From NCBI GenBank assembly GCA_003221035.1, contig QHUB01000018.1, positions 1-64,000 of the forward strand: DNA of 64,000 nucleotides. Direction: 5' to 3'. This document shows positions 21,631 through 28,382 of this stretch, piece after piece. The notes under the pieces were generated by a model. The model did not search any database. It saw only the letters and a program-made list of their open reading frames with translations, and was not told the origin of the DNA. The DNA is from Gemmatimonadota bacterium (GTDB taxonomy: Bacteria; Gemmatimonadota; Gemmatimonadetes; Gemmatimonadales; GWC2-71-9). The position numbers and the translations under genes are program-made. Each line of letters opens with the position of its first letter. Position 1 is the first letter of the stretch.

Positions 21631-22698
21631 CTAGTCGCCGAAACTGACGCCGAGGTCCCTGGCGGTGGCAACGCTGTCGGAGTCCACGGGGACTCGGCGC
21701 GGCGTTGCCAACGCTTCCGCGATCGGTACCGACACGATCCGCGGCGGCTGCAGCGCAACCATCATCCCGAACCGTTGTTCGGCGACCAGACGGACAGCGG
21801 CTGCGCCAAACCGCAGGGCCAGCAGCCGGTCGAACGTCGTGGGGCCGCCGCCGCGCTGCAAATGTCCGAGCACCAGCGACCGGGTTTCTTTTCCAGTCAT
21901 CTGCTCGATCGAGTGCGCGATTTTGTCCGCGATTCCGCCCAGCCGCTCATGAGCCGGATCGACGAGCGACACGGTGCCTCCCTTCGCCACCGCTCCCTCC
22001 GCGACGACGACGATGCTGAAATGCCGGCCTTCGGCCTCGCGCCGCCGAATCTTGTCGCAGACCTTGTCGATATCGAACGGGATTTCCGGAATCAGAATCA
22101 CGTCGGCCGATCCGGCGAGTCCGGAGTTGAGGGCGATGAAGCCGGCATTACGACCCATGACCTCGACCACGATGACCCGCTCGTGACTTTCCGCCGTCGA
22201 ATGCAGCTTGTCAATCGCATCCGTCGCGGTGGAGACCGCGGTGTCGAACCCGAACGTCGCGACCGTCGCGCCGACGTCGTTGTCGATCGTTTTGGGCACC
22301 CCGACGACGGGCAGCCCCTTCTTCCAGAGCTGCAAGGCGATTCCGAGCGTCCCGTCGCCGCCGATGGCAATGAGTGCGTCCAGCCGGTTGTCCCGAAATG
22401 CGTCGAGCAACTCCTGCGTGCGGTCGCGCTCTTCCCAGCTGCCGTCCGGGCGCTGCATCCGCCACTTGAGCGGGTTGCCGCGGCTCGATGTGCCAAGAAT
22501 GGTACCGCCGAGGTGCGTGATGCCGCGGACTTCGTTGGGGCCGAGCGGCATCAATTCGCCTTCGCCGAGCAGGCTGCCGAAGCCTCGTTTGATCCCCAGG
22601 CATTCCCAGCCGCGATGCACCGCGCTGAGGACGGCGGCGCGAATGACGGCGTTCAAGCCGGGCGCGTCGCCGCCGCCCGTGGAGATCGCGAGCCTCAC
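21631..22698 (-). CDS. pfkA: 6-phosphofructokinase
   Basis: Phosphofructokinase makes fructose 1,6-bisphosphate in glycolysis. The 355-residue protein begins with the nucleotide strand RLAISTGGGDAPGLNAVIRA and contains ALIAIGGDGTLGIA, VGVPKTIDNDVG, VVEVMGRNAGFIAL and GHLQRGGGPTTFDR. GGDG (rather than GGDD) points to ATP use, whereas the Lys in PKTIDND is shared with pyrophosphate-dependent enzymes. This mixed signature is known from the group III ATP-dependent class. GTG 22698 overlaps the stop of the upstream selenoprotein gene as GTGA, so the two are translationally coupled. A hairpin at 21569-21598 probably terminates the transcript. Confidence 0.95.
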   Translation of the reverse strand: MRLAISTGGGDAPGLNAVIRAAVLSAVHRGWECLGIKRGFGSLLGEGELMPLGPNEVRGITHLGGTILGTSSRGNPLKWRMQRPDGSWEERDRTQELLDAFRDNRLDALIAIGGDGTLGIALQLWKKGLPVVGVPKTIDNDVGATVATFGFDTAVSTATDAIDKLHSTAESHERVIVVEVMGRNAGFIALNSGLAGSADVILIPEIPFDIDKVCDKIRRREAEGRHFSIVVVAEGAVAKGGTVSLVDPAHERLGGIADKIAHSIEQMTGKETRSLVLGHLQRGGGPTTFDRLLALRFGAAAVRLVAEQRFGMMVALQPPRIVSVPIAEALATPRRVPVDSDSVATARDLGVSFGD

Positions 22699-22934
22699 TT
22701 TTTGCCGGCGGTCCCCTCGCGAATCAGGCGCACGACCTCTCCCGGTTCCGCGTGACGCTTCGTGCTTTTCTTGGAGAAGACGCGACGTCCATCGACATCC
22801 ACTTCAAAGACGCCGCCGGACGACTGGATCAGGCGCACTTCTGCGTGCGGGTACGCATCACGGATTTCGGCCGCCAGACCGGTGGCCCGAGGCTCGTAGT
22901 TTCAGACGACGCAGTATTCGATTGTGACCGTCAT
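22695..22934 (-). CDS. SelW/Rdx-family selenoprotein with in-frame UGA (Sec11)
   Basis: Rdx proteins (SelW, SelT, SelH and bacterial relatives) are small thioredoxin-fold redox proteins with a CxxC or CxxU centre. From ATG 22934 the frame reads MTVTIEYCVV, then TGA (22904-22902), then NYEPRATGLAAEIRD and onward to a TGA stop at 22697-22695, for 79 residues in all. Both sides of the UGA are family-like: strand TVTIEYC, motif C8-V-V-U11, YEPRA helix, then GGVFEVDVDGRRVFSKK and HAEPGEVVRLI. If the UGA is read as selenocysteine the product is complete; if not, only ten residues are made. A SECIS-like hairpin follows the UGA. The stop overlaps the pfkA start. Automatic gene calling would miss this gene. 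Confidence 0.9.
22867..22904 (-). promoter_or_regulatory. SECIS-like element after the UGA codon
   Basis: Counting U of UGA (22904) as 1, UCGG (15-18) pairs with CCGA (35-38). Above it CC (20-21) pairs with GG (33-34), or alternatively GCC (19-21) with GGC (30-32). The apical loop carries GGUCU at 25-29 (22880-22876). Bacterial SECIS elements lie directly after the UGA and need a G-U at the top of the loop for SelB; the E. coli fdhF element has the same GGUCU, about three bases nearer to its UGA. Confidence 0.75.
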
Positions 22935-22994
22935 GGCGTGAACGATAGTCGCGCTTGACACACCGCGCCACGGCGCCGACCTTCGCGACAGGTC

Positions 22995-25091
22995 ATGCGG
23001 CCCGCGCTGATTGTTCGTATCCTCATTGCCATCGCCGCGCTCCTCAGCTTCGGCGCAGGGCTGATCGCCTACGCCACCGGTCGAGTGCCAGGCGCCGAAA
23101 ACCTCCCGCTCGCCGGCGCACTGCTGGTGCTCGTCGCTGCCTTCACGCGGCGCAACGGCATTCCGCTTCCCGGTAACGGATTCTCCTCGTACGTGCTTGG
23201 CGTCATGCTGTTCGCCATTCTCGATCGCGGCTGGGCGTTCGCAGCGATCGTGGCGCCGTTTGCGATGCTGGTCGGCGACGTGCTCCTGCGGCGCCTGACC
23301 TTCCGGACGGCGCTCGGCAATGCCGCGCATCTTACCGCGGGGTCGACCTTCGTCGGGCTGATGTATGCGCGTCTCTCCGGTGCGGCCGGCGCCGCAGCGC
23401 TGACGGCGGACAATGCCTGGGTCGTCGCGCTGACCATCGTGCTGCTGCCGGTAATCGTGAACGGCACCTTCTATCTCGAGCTCGCGCTCGGCCGGACGAT
23501 CGCATGGGTGGACGCACGCCTCACGCTGCGCTGGGAATCGACCGTCTATTTCGTGTCGGCCGCGCTCGCGCTGGGATGGCTGGGCGCTGTGGAGGCGAGC
23601 ATCCCCGTCGGAACACGCGCGTTGCTGTTCGCGGCGCTCGCGCTCGGCACTGTCGGGAGCCTCCGTGTGCTGCGTCTGGGCGTTCGTTCCGATGAGCTGC
23701 AGCTCGTGCAGCGGCTCGCGCAAGTGATCGCCGCGGAGTTGACGCTGAGTCACAGTTTCCAGCGCGTGCAGGAGCTCACGCGGCAACTGGTGCCGTGGGA
23801 GCAGATGGGGTTCGCGCGCTACGATGCCCGGACCCGTCAGATGGAGCTCGTCGCCGACACCGCCGCGCAGCCGGGCAGCACGTTTCGCTTCGATGCCGAA
23901 GCGGGGCTCACGGGGGAAGCGCTGCGCTCGCGTCGCCCGGTCGTGGCACACGGCTTGGCCCGGGATCAGGTCGTCGTGCCGGGAGGGGAGACGCCCGGAT
24001 CGGAGATGCTCGTGCCACTGTACCATGCCGGCCAGCTGGTGGGGCTGTGGAGCGTCCGGCATTCCGATCCCACGATGTACCGTCAGTCTGACGGCGATCT
24101 CCTCGAGCTCCTCGCGCCGCAGCTCGCCCTGATGGTCGCGATCGACGGATCGTTGCGACCGGTGACCGGGGCGTCGGACCGGACGATGCAGTACGTGCAG
24201 ACGCTCACCGCTACGACCGAAGAAATCCACGCCTCGAGTCAGGAGGTCGCGGCCTCGGCACAGCGCGCGAGTCGCGGCGCAGGACAAGCGGCGTCGCTTG
24301 TCAGCACCGCATCCCGTGAAGCAGGCCAGTTGAAGGACAGCGCCACCGAGTTGGCCACGGCCGGCGACCGGACGCGCGAGGCCGGCGCGCAAATGGAGAA
24401 GACCGCGGAACGCGTGCGGACCGCGACCCAGGGCGCGGTGCGTCAACTGACCGACCTCGGTGCGACGACTGACGAAAGCGCGACCGAAGTCGGGAGACTG
24501 CGAGAGGTAGCGGCGCAGGTCGAGAGATTTTCCGAGACGATTGGATTCGTCGCCAATCAGACCAATCTGCTCGCACTGAACGCGACGATCGAGGCGGCGC
24601 GCGCCGGAATTCACGGCCGTGGATTTGCCGTCGTCGCGGATGAAGTGCACAAACTCGCCGAAGCGAGCGGGCGCGAGGCGCGCAACGTCGGGAGAGCGGT
24701 ACAAGACACGCGCCGCGCGCTGGATCGGGCCGCGCAGCTGATCGAGCGGATCCGCGGCGACCTGAGTCAGGTCGTGGAGGGCTCGGCGGCGTGGGTGAAG
24801 GACCTCGACCGCATCGGGGAAGTGGCTGCCGATACCGCGCGGGCCGGAAAACAGGTGGCCGAGATCAGTCGCCAGAGCGCCCAGCTGGCGATGCGAATGA
24901 CCGAGTCGCTCGGGCAGGCGCGCACGGCGGCGCAGAGCTCCGCTCAGGAAGCGGAATCAGTTGCCGCGGCGGCCGCGGAACAGCTGCGTGCCATCCAGGA
25001 CCTCGCCCAGGGCGCGCAGGAGTTATCGGGCCTCGCCGAAGAGCTTGCCCGGGCGCTACGCTTCATTCGCGGCGGCAACGGGCACCCCTAA
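22995..25091 (+). CDS. Methyl-accepting chemotaxis-type sensor with membrane and GAF domains
   Basis: The 698-residue protein starts with about seven hydrophobic segments (residues 5-235, resembling an integral-membrane sensor domain). A GAF-like domain follows (about 240-385; [40 protein letters not shown]). The C-terminus is a long helical MA signalling region with the hairpin [20 protein letters not shown] and [20 protein letters not shown] (about 520-565), which contacts CheA/CheW arrays. The other helices are Ala/Gln/Glu-rich coiled coil. A HAMP domain is not obvious. The ligand is unknown, and no other chemotaxis gene is in the window. It is divergent from the selenoprotein gene with 60 bases between the starts. 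Confidence 0.9.
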
Positions 25092-25219: not shown

Positions 25220-26665
25220 ATGCGCGCGCCTCTCGTTCCGGTCTTGCTCTGTCTCGCGGTCGTTCCCGCGATCAGCGACGCACAGCACACTCACCAATTC
25301 GAATTTGGCGCGTTTGGCTCGTTCACGCGCTACGACCGGGCGTTTGGGCTCGACAACCAGCTCGGTGGCGGTGGCCGGTTCGGGTATTTCTTCAGTCCGG
25401 CCATCGGCGTCGAAGTCGACGCCGGCTATCAGCAACCCTCACTCACCACCGGTGGCACCACGGCGGCGCTCGCACTGGGAGCTGCCAGCCTGGTCGTCAA
25501 CCTCGGCGGCGATAACAATCTCTTCTATATCCTCGGCGGCTATTCGCGCCTGCGGTTCACCGACAACCCCAGCTACATGTTCACCGATAACGGTGTTCAT
25601 GGCGGAATCGGCGACAGAATCTTTCTGGGCGAGCGCATTGCGCTCCGTCTTGAAGCGCGGGGGATTTACTCGCCGAACACCGGACTTCCCGGCGGCGCCT
25701 GGGCCGGCCACATCGTCGGGTCCGCCGGCCTTTCGGTTTTCACCGGGCCGAGTGCCTTACACGACGCCGATGGGGACGGCATAGCCGACAAGAAGGATGG
25801 GTGCCCCGGCACACCCGGCGGCGCGATCGTGGACACCCACGGCTGTCCCAACGACTCTGATCGCGACGGCGTCTATAACGGCCTCGACGCGTGCCCCAAC
25901 ACTGTCGAACACGCCGAAGTCGACGCCAGCGGCTGTCCGAAGGACACCGACCACGACGGCGTCTACGACGGGCTCGATAAGTGTCCGGGCTCGATGACGG
26001 GCGCGCGTGTCGATGCCCAGGGCTGTCCGACGGACGCCGACGCCGATGGCGTCCCCGACGGTCCGGACCAGTGCCCGAACTCACCGGCCGGCGCCATGGT
26101 GGACACGACGGGCTGCCCGGTGGACAGCGATCATGACCGCGTGCCCGACGGGCTCGACAAATGTCCCAACACGCCGGCGGGCGTGGAAGTCGATACCGTG
26201 GGCTGTCAACGCGCGATCGACAGCGACGGCGACGGGATCGACGACATCAGAGACAAGTGTCCCGCGACGGCCGCGGGAACGCACGTGGACTCGGCCGGTT
26301 GCCCGATCCTCTTCACCGAAACGCGCAAAGAGGTCGTGCTGCGCGGGGTGACGTTCGAGACGGGCCGCTCAGCGCTGAAGCCTGATTCGTACACGATTCT
26401 CGACATCGTGGCGGCGTCACTCATCGCCAACCCCGACATCACGATCGAAATCGCCGGCCACACCGACAACACCGGAGCGGCGCCGACCAATACGCGTCTC
26501 TCACAGGCGCGTGCGGATGCGGTCCGGACCTATCTGGCGAGCAAAGGCGTCGCGCCCGGGCGGATGGTCGCCAGAGGCTACGGCCCGTCGGACCCGATCG
26601 CGCCCAACACCACCGCCTCAGGTCGCGCGCTGAACCGTCGCGTCGAGCTGCGGCAGACGAACTGA
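25220..26665 (+). CDS. OmpA-family outer-membrane protein with six thrombospondin type 3 repeats
   Basis: Signal peptide MRAPLVPVLLCLAVVPAISDA is followed by a beta-barrel-like N-terminal domain (HQFEFGAFGSFTRYDRAFGLD, GGGRFGYFFSPAIGVEV; about 23-180). Six calcium-binding TSP3 repeats follow (about 181-355), each with D-x-D-x-DG acidic loops and CPxT/VDxxGC cysteines, such as DADGDGIADKKDGCP and DSDGDGIDDIRDKCP. The C-terminal OmpA domain (about 375-481) contains EIAGHTDNTG and LSQARADAVRTYLASKGV, the peptidoglycan-binding fold. The protein probably anchors the outer membrane to the wall. It is a tandem paralogue of the next gene, which has eight repeats. AT-rich promoter just upstream. Confidence 0.92.
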   Translation: MRAPLVPVLLCLAVVPAISDAQHTHQFEFGAFGSFTRYDRAFGLDNQLGGGGRFGYFFSPAIGVEVDAGYQQPSLTTGGTTAALALGAASLVVNLGGDNNLFYILGGYSRLRFTDNPSYMFTDNGVHGGIGDRIFLGERIALRLEARGIYSPNTGLPGGAWAGHIVGSAGLSVFTGPSALHDADGDGIADKKDGCPGTPGGAIVDTHGCPNDSDRDGVYNGLDACPNTVEHAEVDASGCPKDTDHDGVYDGLDKCPGSMTGARVDAQGCPTDADADGVPDGPDQCPNSPAGAMVDTTGCPVDSDHDRVPDGLDKCPNTPAGVEVDTVGCQRAIDSDGDGIDDIRDKCPATAAGTHVDSAGCPILFTETRKEVVLRGVTFETGRSALKPDSYTILDIVAASLIANPDITIEIAGHTDNTGAAPTNTRLSQARADAVRTYLASKGVAPGRMVARGYGPSDPIAPNTTASGRALNRRVELRQTN

Positions 26666-26693: not shown

Positions 26694-28382
26694 GTGAAGA
26701 AACTTGCGGCAGTGTGCGTGATACTGGCTCTGGGCGGCAGCAGTCGCCTCGCGGCGCAGTACGATCGTCGCTACGAGGTCGGGCTGTTCGGGGCGTACAC
26801 GAAATATGACCCGACATTCGGCCTCGCGAACAAGGCGGGCGGCGGTGCGCGATTCTCCTACGCGCTGAACCCGAAGCTCGGCCTCGAGGTCGAAGCGATC
26901 TTCCAATCGCCGCAGGACATCACGTCGACGACCCAGATCGAGCCGATGATTGGATCGGGGAGCCTGATCGTCAACGTGCTGAACCAGAAGCGCGCGACGT
27001 TCTTCATTCTCGGCGGCTACTCGCGACTGGACTTTGGCGGCACCGATCCCTATCGCTTCACCGATGGCGGGTGGCACGGCGGCGCCGGCGCGAAGCTCTA
27101 TGTGAGCTCGCGGCTTGCGCTGCGTCTCGACGCCCGCGCGATCTACTCGCCGAATTCCACGAGCGGCTTCACGGACAAGGCGACGCACTACGTCGGTTCG
27201 GCCGGATTGTCGTTCTTCCAGGCCGGCAGCGGCACGCCGTCAAAGGACACGGACCGCGACGGCGTCGCCGACAAGAAAGACACCTGCCCCGATACCCCGC
27301 TCGGCGCGACGGTCGATGGCCACGGTTGCCCGAGCGATCAGGACGGCGACGCCGTGTTGAACGGCATCGACCACTGTCCCGACACGCCGAGCGGCGCCAC
27401 CGTGGACGCGCGCGGCTGCCCGAGCGACCAGGACGGCGACAAGGTGTTCGACGGCATCGATCAGTGCCCGAATACCGCGGCCGGCGTCTCGGTGGACGCA
27501 AAGGGATGCCCGCCGGCGGTCGTACCGCTTGGCCCTGGTGACGCCGATGCCGACGGTGTAAATGATCTGCTCGACAAGTGCCCGGCGACTCCCGCGGGTG
27601 CGGCTGTGGACGCGAACGGTTGCCCGCTCGACTCTGATCGCGACAACGTCTGGGACGGGCTCGACAAGTGCCCCGACACGCCGCTGGGTGCGACCGTCGA
27701 CGCGAATGGATGCCCGTCGGACAGTGATGGTGACAAGGTTTTTGACGGCATCGATCGTTGCCCCGACACCCAGGCCGGGACGCCGGTGGATTCATTCGGC
27801 TGTCCGGCCGACAGCGACAAAGACGGTGTGGGCGACGGGTTCGACAAGTGCCCGAATACCCCCGCCGGGATTCAGGTTGACGCCACGGGCTGTCCGATGG
27901 CGCACGACACCGACGGCGACGGCGTCGTCGACACGCAGGATCGCTGCCCCAATACTCCCGCGGGCCAGCGCGTCGATCAGTACGGGTGCTTGATCCTGTT
28001 CGAGGAGCACACCGTCGTCCCGCCGGGCGCTCCGCCGGCGCGTCCGACGCTCATTTTGCAGGGCGTGAACTTCCAGACCGGCAGCTCGGTGCTCACACGC
28101 GATTCGTACGCGGTGCTCGACCAGGTCGCGGCGTCTCTCGTCGCGAATCCGGAAATTCGAATCGAGGTCGCCGGGTATACCGATTCGACCGGCGCGAAGC
28201 TGACGAACCTGCATCTCTCGATGGGTCGAGCCGGCGCCGTGCGCTACTATCTCGCGCGGAAAGGCGTGGCCCCGTATCGCATGCGCGCGCAAGGATACGG
28301 CGCATCGCACTACATCGCCTCGAATACGACGTCCGATGGACGGGCGCAGAACAGGCGTGTCGCGCTGCACAAGTTGAACTAG
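26694..28382 (+). CDS. OmpA-family protein with eight thrombospondin type 3 repeats
   Basis: GTG 26694 follows a GGGAGG site and starts a signal peptide (KKLAAVCVILALGGSSRLAAQ). It has the same architecture as the gene before it: a barrel-like domain (YEVGLFGAYTKYDPTFGLAN), eight TSP3 repeats with alternating D-x-D-G loops and paired cysteines (about residues 185-430), then an OmpA domain with EVAGYTDSTGAKLTN and VRYYLARKGVAPYRMRAQGYG. The product is 562 residues versus 481 for its neighbour, mostly because of two extra repeats. The pair probably arose by tandem duplication with later gain or loss of repeats. Spacing to the upstream gene is only 28 bases, so they may be co-transcribed; a strong terminator hairpin follows. 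Confidence 0.92.
   Translation: MKKLAAVCVILALGGSSRLAAQYDRRYEVGLFGAYTKYDPTFGLANKAGGGARFSYALNPKLGLEVEAIFQSPQDITSTTQIEPMIGSGSLIVNVLNQKRATFFILGGYSRLDFGGTDPYRFTDGGWHGGAGAKLYVSSRLALRLDARAIYSPNSTSGFTDKATHYVGSAGLSFFQAGSGTPSKDTDRDGVADKKDTCPDTPLGATVDGHGCPSDQDGDAVLNGIDHCPDTPSGATVDARGCPSDQDGDKVFDGIDQCPNTAAGVSVDAKGCPPAVVPLGPGDADADGVNDLLDKCPATPAGAAVDANGCPLDSDRDNVWDGLDKCPDTPLGATVDANGCPSDSDGDKVFDGIDRCPDTQAGTPVDSFGCPADSDKDGVGDGFDKCPNTPAGIQVDATGCPMAHDTDGDGVVDTQDRCPNTPAGQRVDQYGCLILFEEHTVVPPGAPPARPTLILQGVNFQTGSSVLTRDSYAVLDQVAASLVANPEIRIEVAGYTDSTGAKLTNLHLSMGRAGAVRYYLARKGVAPYRMRAQGYGASHYIASNTTSDGRAQNRRVALHKLN
27246..27990 (+). repeat. Tandem TSP3-coding repeats, about 70-80 bases each
   Basis: Eight degenerate direct repeats encode D-x-D-x-D-x-V-x-D-G-x-D-x-CP-x-T followed by VDxxGCP. 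Several neighbours are near-identical (DQDGDKVFDGIDQCP and DSDGDKVFDGIDRCP), indicating recent copying. A related six-copy array lies at about 25766-26310 in the preceding gene. Confidence 0.75.

Follow-up and report, generated by a model that had tools for sequence, protein, structure and literature searches.

The window, a 64,000-nucleotide stretch of Gemmatimonadota DNA, contains a short reading frame that runs up to pfkA and carries a UGA as its eleventh codon, which raises the question of whether this codon closes the frame or is read as selenocysteine. The first-pass annotation had proposed a SelW/Rdx selenoprotein, with use of selenocysteine (Sec) as an inference, and this proposal now has the support of the Sec machinery of the genome, of covariation in the selenocysteine insertion element (SECIS), and of conservation among homologues. 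We put the probability at about 0.96 that selW, as we call the gene, is a functional SelW-like selenoprotein gene of the Rdx family, with selenocysteine predicted at UGA 11, an expected role as a thiol/selenol oxidoreductase, and probable expression together with pfkA. SelW-like selenoproteins are a known class, of which the window gene is a further member. The features of the locus are collected in Table 1.

Table 1. Coordinates in the window of the selW locus and the evidence for each feature.
Feature	Position	Strand	Evidence
pfkA, 6-phosphofructokinase, 355 aa	21631..22698	-	PF00365 338 bits; TIGR02483 430.9 bits, at its cut-off
GTGA, overlap of selW stop and pfkA GTG start	22695..22698	-	sequence; same offset in 30/91 linked homologues
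selW-like (Rdx, PF10262) predicted selenoprotein gene; 79 residues, Sec at position 11, TGA stop included	22695..22934	-	translation, profile matches, purifying selection
Bacterial SECIS hairpin	22869..22887	-	pair counts and slid controls, covarying pairs, synonymous constraint, GGUCU loop shared with the fdnG and selD genes of this genome
In-frame UGA, codon 11, predicted to be read as selenocysteine	22902..22904	-	TGA at same codon in 127/127 non-identical homologues
Cys8 codon, Sec partner in CxxU redox motif	22911..22913	-	Cys in 127/127

The gene is encoded on the minus strand, with its ATG at 22934-22932 and its TGA stop at 22697-22695, and translates as MTVTIEYCVV-U-NYEPRATGLAAEIRDAYPHAEVRLIQSSGGVFEVDVDGRRVFSKKSTKRHAEPGEVVRLIREGTAGKK-stop. 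The translation first given for it was exact but came with no strand; the plus-strand reading of 22695-22934 yields no Rdx protein and was rejected. When Cys is written for U, the protein scores 77.5 bits against Pfam Rdx (cut-off 22.6) and 103.3 bits against NCBIfam NF041051, 'SelT/SelW/SelH family (seleno)protein' (cut-off 88), and profile searches also match solved SelW-like relatives, with 2fa8 at 3.9e-16. The C8-V-V-U11 near the N-terminus aligns with the Cys pair of 2fa8 and makes up the CxxU that had been pointed out for C8 and the UGA. Searched in full, the 3.36-Mb genome yielded a single Rdx copy, this one, with one internal TGA (69.5 bits), and no Cys homologue. Within the genus of the window, the codons after the UGA evolve under purifying selection (pN/pS = 0.147), so that the situation named beforehand as fatal to the proposal, a Cys homologue elsewhere alongside a decaying copy, is not what this genome holds. 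Because the Rdx match runs straight through the UGA, 127 homologues carry the same UGA, and selection continues beyond it, UGA 11 is not a chance reading.

A bacterial selenoprotein requires tRNA-Sec, SelA, SelB and SelD, and the genome encodes all four. The tRNA-Sec scores 77.4 bits against a cut-off of 47 bits and is given the anticodon TCA (UCA) by ARAGORN, while the next candidates reach at most 46.6 bits, the top ones reading as tRNA-Ser; SelA is found at 540.7 bits, SelB at 359 bits summed, and SelD at 393.3 bits. The first-pass annotation had named selA, selB, selC and selD as the genes to look for, and with the full set present, a lack of machinery does not count against it. We also checked SelD and the formate dehydrogenases of the genome for in-frame UGA codons. 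The SelD gene has one at its catalytic position (HGAG-U-ACK; G000:C70:45326-46258, L048), and the gene for an FdnG-like formate dehydrogenase alpha subunit also contains an in-frame UGA (ENQARI-U-HSSSV; G000:C96:17592-20546, L159). Downstream of the UGA, selW, fdnG and selD share the apical loop GGUCU, which is held by GGCCACC-GGUCU-GGCGGCC in selW, by the perfect stem of GUCCCC-GGUCU-GGGGAC in fdnG, and by GCGCA-GGUCU-UGCGC in selD.

In selW, this hairpin lies 21 nt after the UGA and pairs positions 22887-22881 with 22875-22869, with one A.C mismatch, around the loop at 22880-22876. The bSECIS model calls for a loop of 3-9 nt with a G in its first two positions, a stem of 4-16 bp, a distance of 16-37 nt from the UGA, and a minimum free energy (MFE) at or below -7.5 (PMC13188914). 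The window element falls within every one of these limits, having a 5-nt loop, a 7-position stem with one mismatch, the 21-nt spacing, and an MFE of -11.1 kcal/mol, and among the 127 homologues the loop G is present in all and the MFE limit is satisfied by 126. The Rfam search matched no SECIS family, and the folding energy of the single sequence is no better than that of shuffles (z -0.36 to 0.46), which means that the hairpin is established by comparative data alone.

These comparative data come from two directions, the first being constraint at synonymous sites. The third base of codon +7 is C in 127/127 genes (53 expected), though the codon encodes Ala, Val, Thr or Ser; that of codon +8 is T in 107/127 (12 expected) and never C (63 expected), the codon being GGT, AGT or AGG in nearly all of the 127; and that of codon +9 is G in 126/127 (75 expected). 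Within the genus of the window, synonymous divergence (pS) is 0.198 over the first 14 codons after the UGA, which hold the SECIS, against 0.609 further on. The second is covariation between the arms of the stem. Mutual information was calculated between every two columns of a 90-nt alignment that begins with the U of the UGA as nt1, and the three highest corrected values belonged to nt18-36, 21-33 and 22-32, all in one stem. Pair counts taken on one gene per genus (n=62), with shuffles and slid partners as controls, gave pairing in 92.9% of stem cells, compared with 85.5% in shuffles, and 27 double-change cells, compared with 5.7, with compensation at four pairs; sliding the partner by one column lowered pairing to about 40%. 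The hairpin that had been noticed after the UGA is thus real: it is a bacterial SECIS whose stem covaries and whose synonymous sites hardly change, and these data supply a strong comparative model of it.

Across the phylum, an Rdx match is present in 193/395 genomes, nearly all with exactly one TGA, which makes a SelW-type selenoprotein gene widespread in Gemmatimonadota, with an Rdx gene in about half of the genomes; a gene caller for which UGA is nothing but a stop would overlook selW. Read at the DNA level, every one of the 127 non-identical UGA-type genes, from 62 genera, shows C-x-x-UGA with the UGA at this codon, within the motif EYCxx-U-NYEPRAxxLAAE. If UGA 11 were an ordinary stop, and the gene a decaying Rdx pseudogene whose Cys codon had mutated to TGA, the protein would be cut at 10 residues, and the unremarkable folding energy of the hairpin would be in keeping with this. 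However, the same UGA recurs in 127 homologues from 62 genera, pN/pS stays low after it, the SECIS covaries, and the genome holds the full Sec machinery. Since the frame beyond the UGA is conserved throughout the phylum, the pseudogene reading is refuted, and we give it next to no weight.

SelA and Rdx also occur together, SelA being found in 175 of the 193 genomes with an Rdx match as against 108 of the 202 others (Fisher p 4e-17). Fifteen genomes have the UGA-type gene and no intact SelA match, and in 13 of these SelA is probably missing only from the assembly, because tRNA-Sec is still found there, at 66-82 bits. Two draft genomes (MAGs), G348 and G037, carry the UGA-type gene with neither a convincing SelA nor a convincing tRNA-Sec; incomplete assembly is the simplest reason, with recent loss as the alternative. 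More distant UGA homologues were found in Acidobacteria, in Krumholzibacteriota, and in one MAG labelled Deltaproteobacteria. Among the close relatives, which are Gemmatimonadetes MAGs, scaffold names that refer to soil depth are frequent, and from these we infer a soil habitat for the host. As a separate observation, G145 has a second Rdx copy (G145:C55:638-853) with two in-frame TGA codons, possibly a decaying duplicate.

A natural experiment on the identity of the residue is offered by G128, whose genome is a single, 100%-complete contig. Homologues had been proposed as a check for Cys or Sec at position 11, and within the UGA-type clade G128 holds the one Cys version, its Rdx gene (L078, G128:C1:2897000-2898300) having TGC in place of TGA. 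SelA is absent from this genome, as is tRNA-Sec, for which the best candidate reaches 43.9 bits, and the SECIS is in decay, with a loop codon that is now GCG and two broken stem pairs. Its congeners in g35 carry the UGA, intact stems, and tRNA-Sec, which makes this a case, within one genus, of a single species that lacks the Sec machinery, the Sec codon and the SECIS alike. The frame by itself does not name the residue, and the UGA might in principle be read as another amino acid, such as Trp through a reassigned code or a suppressor. Against this, a tRNA-Sec with a UCA anticodon is present together with SelA, SelB and SelD, the SECIS is conserved, the surrounding genes, selW included, end normally in TGA, and where the machinery is lost the UGA has given way to TGC, for Cys, the residue that usually replaces Sec. 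We regard decoding as another amino acid as very improbable, if slightly less so than a pseudogene. Selenocysteine use at UGA 11 is very well supported by sequence, because the machinery, the UGA in 127/127 homologues, the SECIS and the G128 case all favour it.

The course that we propose, from selenocysteine insertion through redox activity and operon transcription to any link with glycolysis, would run as follows. SelB carrying Sec-tRNA-Sec would bind the hairpin at 22887-22869, and UGA 11 would then be decoded as selenocysteine. Profile similarity between the 79-residue product and members of solved structure leads us to expect the thioredoxin-like Rdx fold, and SelW would work as a thiol/selenol oxidoreductase, with Cys8-x-x-Sec11 as its redox centre. 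Expression would be shared with pfkA, whose start overlaps the selW stop; the overlap claimed for this locus is the GTGA that includes the pfkA GTG start at 22698, an arrangement that looks compatible with translational coupling.

The position of the gene before pfkA had been presented as a novelty of this copy; the pairing is real, but it is kept across four families and so is not peculiar to the window. Among the 127 genomes, pfkA lies directly downstream of selW in 91, representing 47/62 genera, with linkage in 48/60 cases in family f1, 33/38 in f2, 5/5 in f3, and 5/5 in f4, and in none in f5, f7, f8 or f9. The two genes overlap or touch in 35 cases and lie within 50 nt of each other in 74, with gaps of up to 164 nt. 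In the 49 loci with enough sequence for a comparison of neighbours, the gene upstream in the window has a homologue in 9, compared with pfkA in 37 of the same loci, and the adjacency of selW and pfkA is therefore conserved beyond general gene order. A literature search for a link between SelW and phosphofructokinase returned only unrelated papers and no description of the pairing. G128 keeps pfkA beside its Cys version, which suggests that it is the protein, rather than the UGA, that matters in this position.

This last case bears on the idea of a selenium switch, in which ribosomes that stop at UGA 11 would miss the overlapping pfkA start and phosphofructokinase would be lowered when selenium is scarce. 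The GTGA overlap, at the same offset in about a third of the linked homologues, and the retention of the pairing in most genera would fit such a switch, but most linked homologues have gaps and no overlap, and G128 has kept the two genes together despite the change from UGA to Cys, which leaves the switch unlikely. A shade more doubtful still is the broader proposal that Sec insertion in selW is a selenium-dependent gate on pfkA, which would make glycolytic flux depend, by way of translational coupling or polarity, on the supply of selenium. Alternatively, SelW might regulate or repair PfkA directly through a PfkA cysteine, as the close gene linkage and a Cys214 conserved in 34/37 linked PfkA proteins would allow. 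However, Cys214 is also present in 12/16 PfkA proteins of relatives that have no linked SelW; conserved whether or not selW is linked, it does not single out a redox target and lends the idea no specific support. We hold this explanation to be as unlikely as the switch. The pairing itself is a concrete lead to the role of bacterial SelW, and, if functional, it may place the task of SelW near the upper steps of glycolysis or their redox control.

Two further observations concern the surroundings of the locus. Just upstream of the selW ATG, positions 22935-22994 form a block that is strongly conserved in the genus, GTGTCAAGCGCGACTATCGTT, with no clear Shine-Dalgarno; it may be a promoter, either with a leaderless start or in common with a divergent gene at 22995. 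The neighbouring genes at 25220-26665 and 26694-28382 have, when their translations are read by eye, an OmpA-type outer-membrane look and calcium-binding-like DxDxDG repeats.

Among known systems, selW resembles the bacterial SelW-like (SELENOW-like) selenoproteins in its Rdx domain and N-terminal CxxU, in its UGA with a downstream bSECIS, and in the scarcity of Cys homologues among Sec users; the searched texts make no mention of Gemmatimonadota (PMC1088965, PMC1794560, PMC13188914). SELENOW-like genes cluster with Prx genes (PMC13188914), whereas the partner here is pfkA. The NF041051 model (SelTWH_Campy) matches over nearly the whole protein, but the window copy has predicted Sec, not Cys, and its phylum differs from the group to which the short name of the model refers. 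The Cys-type SelT/SelW/SelH proteins (L019-L023; Atu0228, PDB 2fa8) belong to the same family and share the CxxC/CxxU position. In Gemmatimonadota, however, L019-L023 (YCPRCRWLLRAAW...) form a second, distinct Rdx clade that is free of the UGA and scores 104-112 bits on Rdx, compared with the 69.5 bits of the window gene with its stop, and some genomes hold both the Cys-type and the UGA-type gene.
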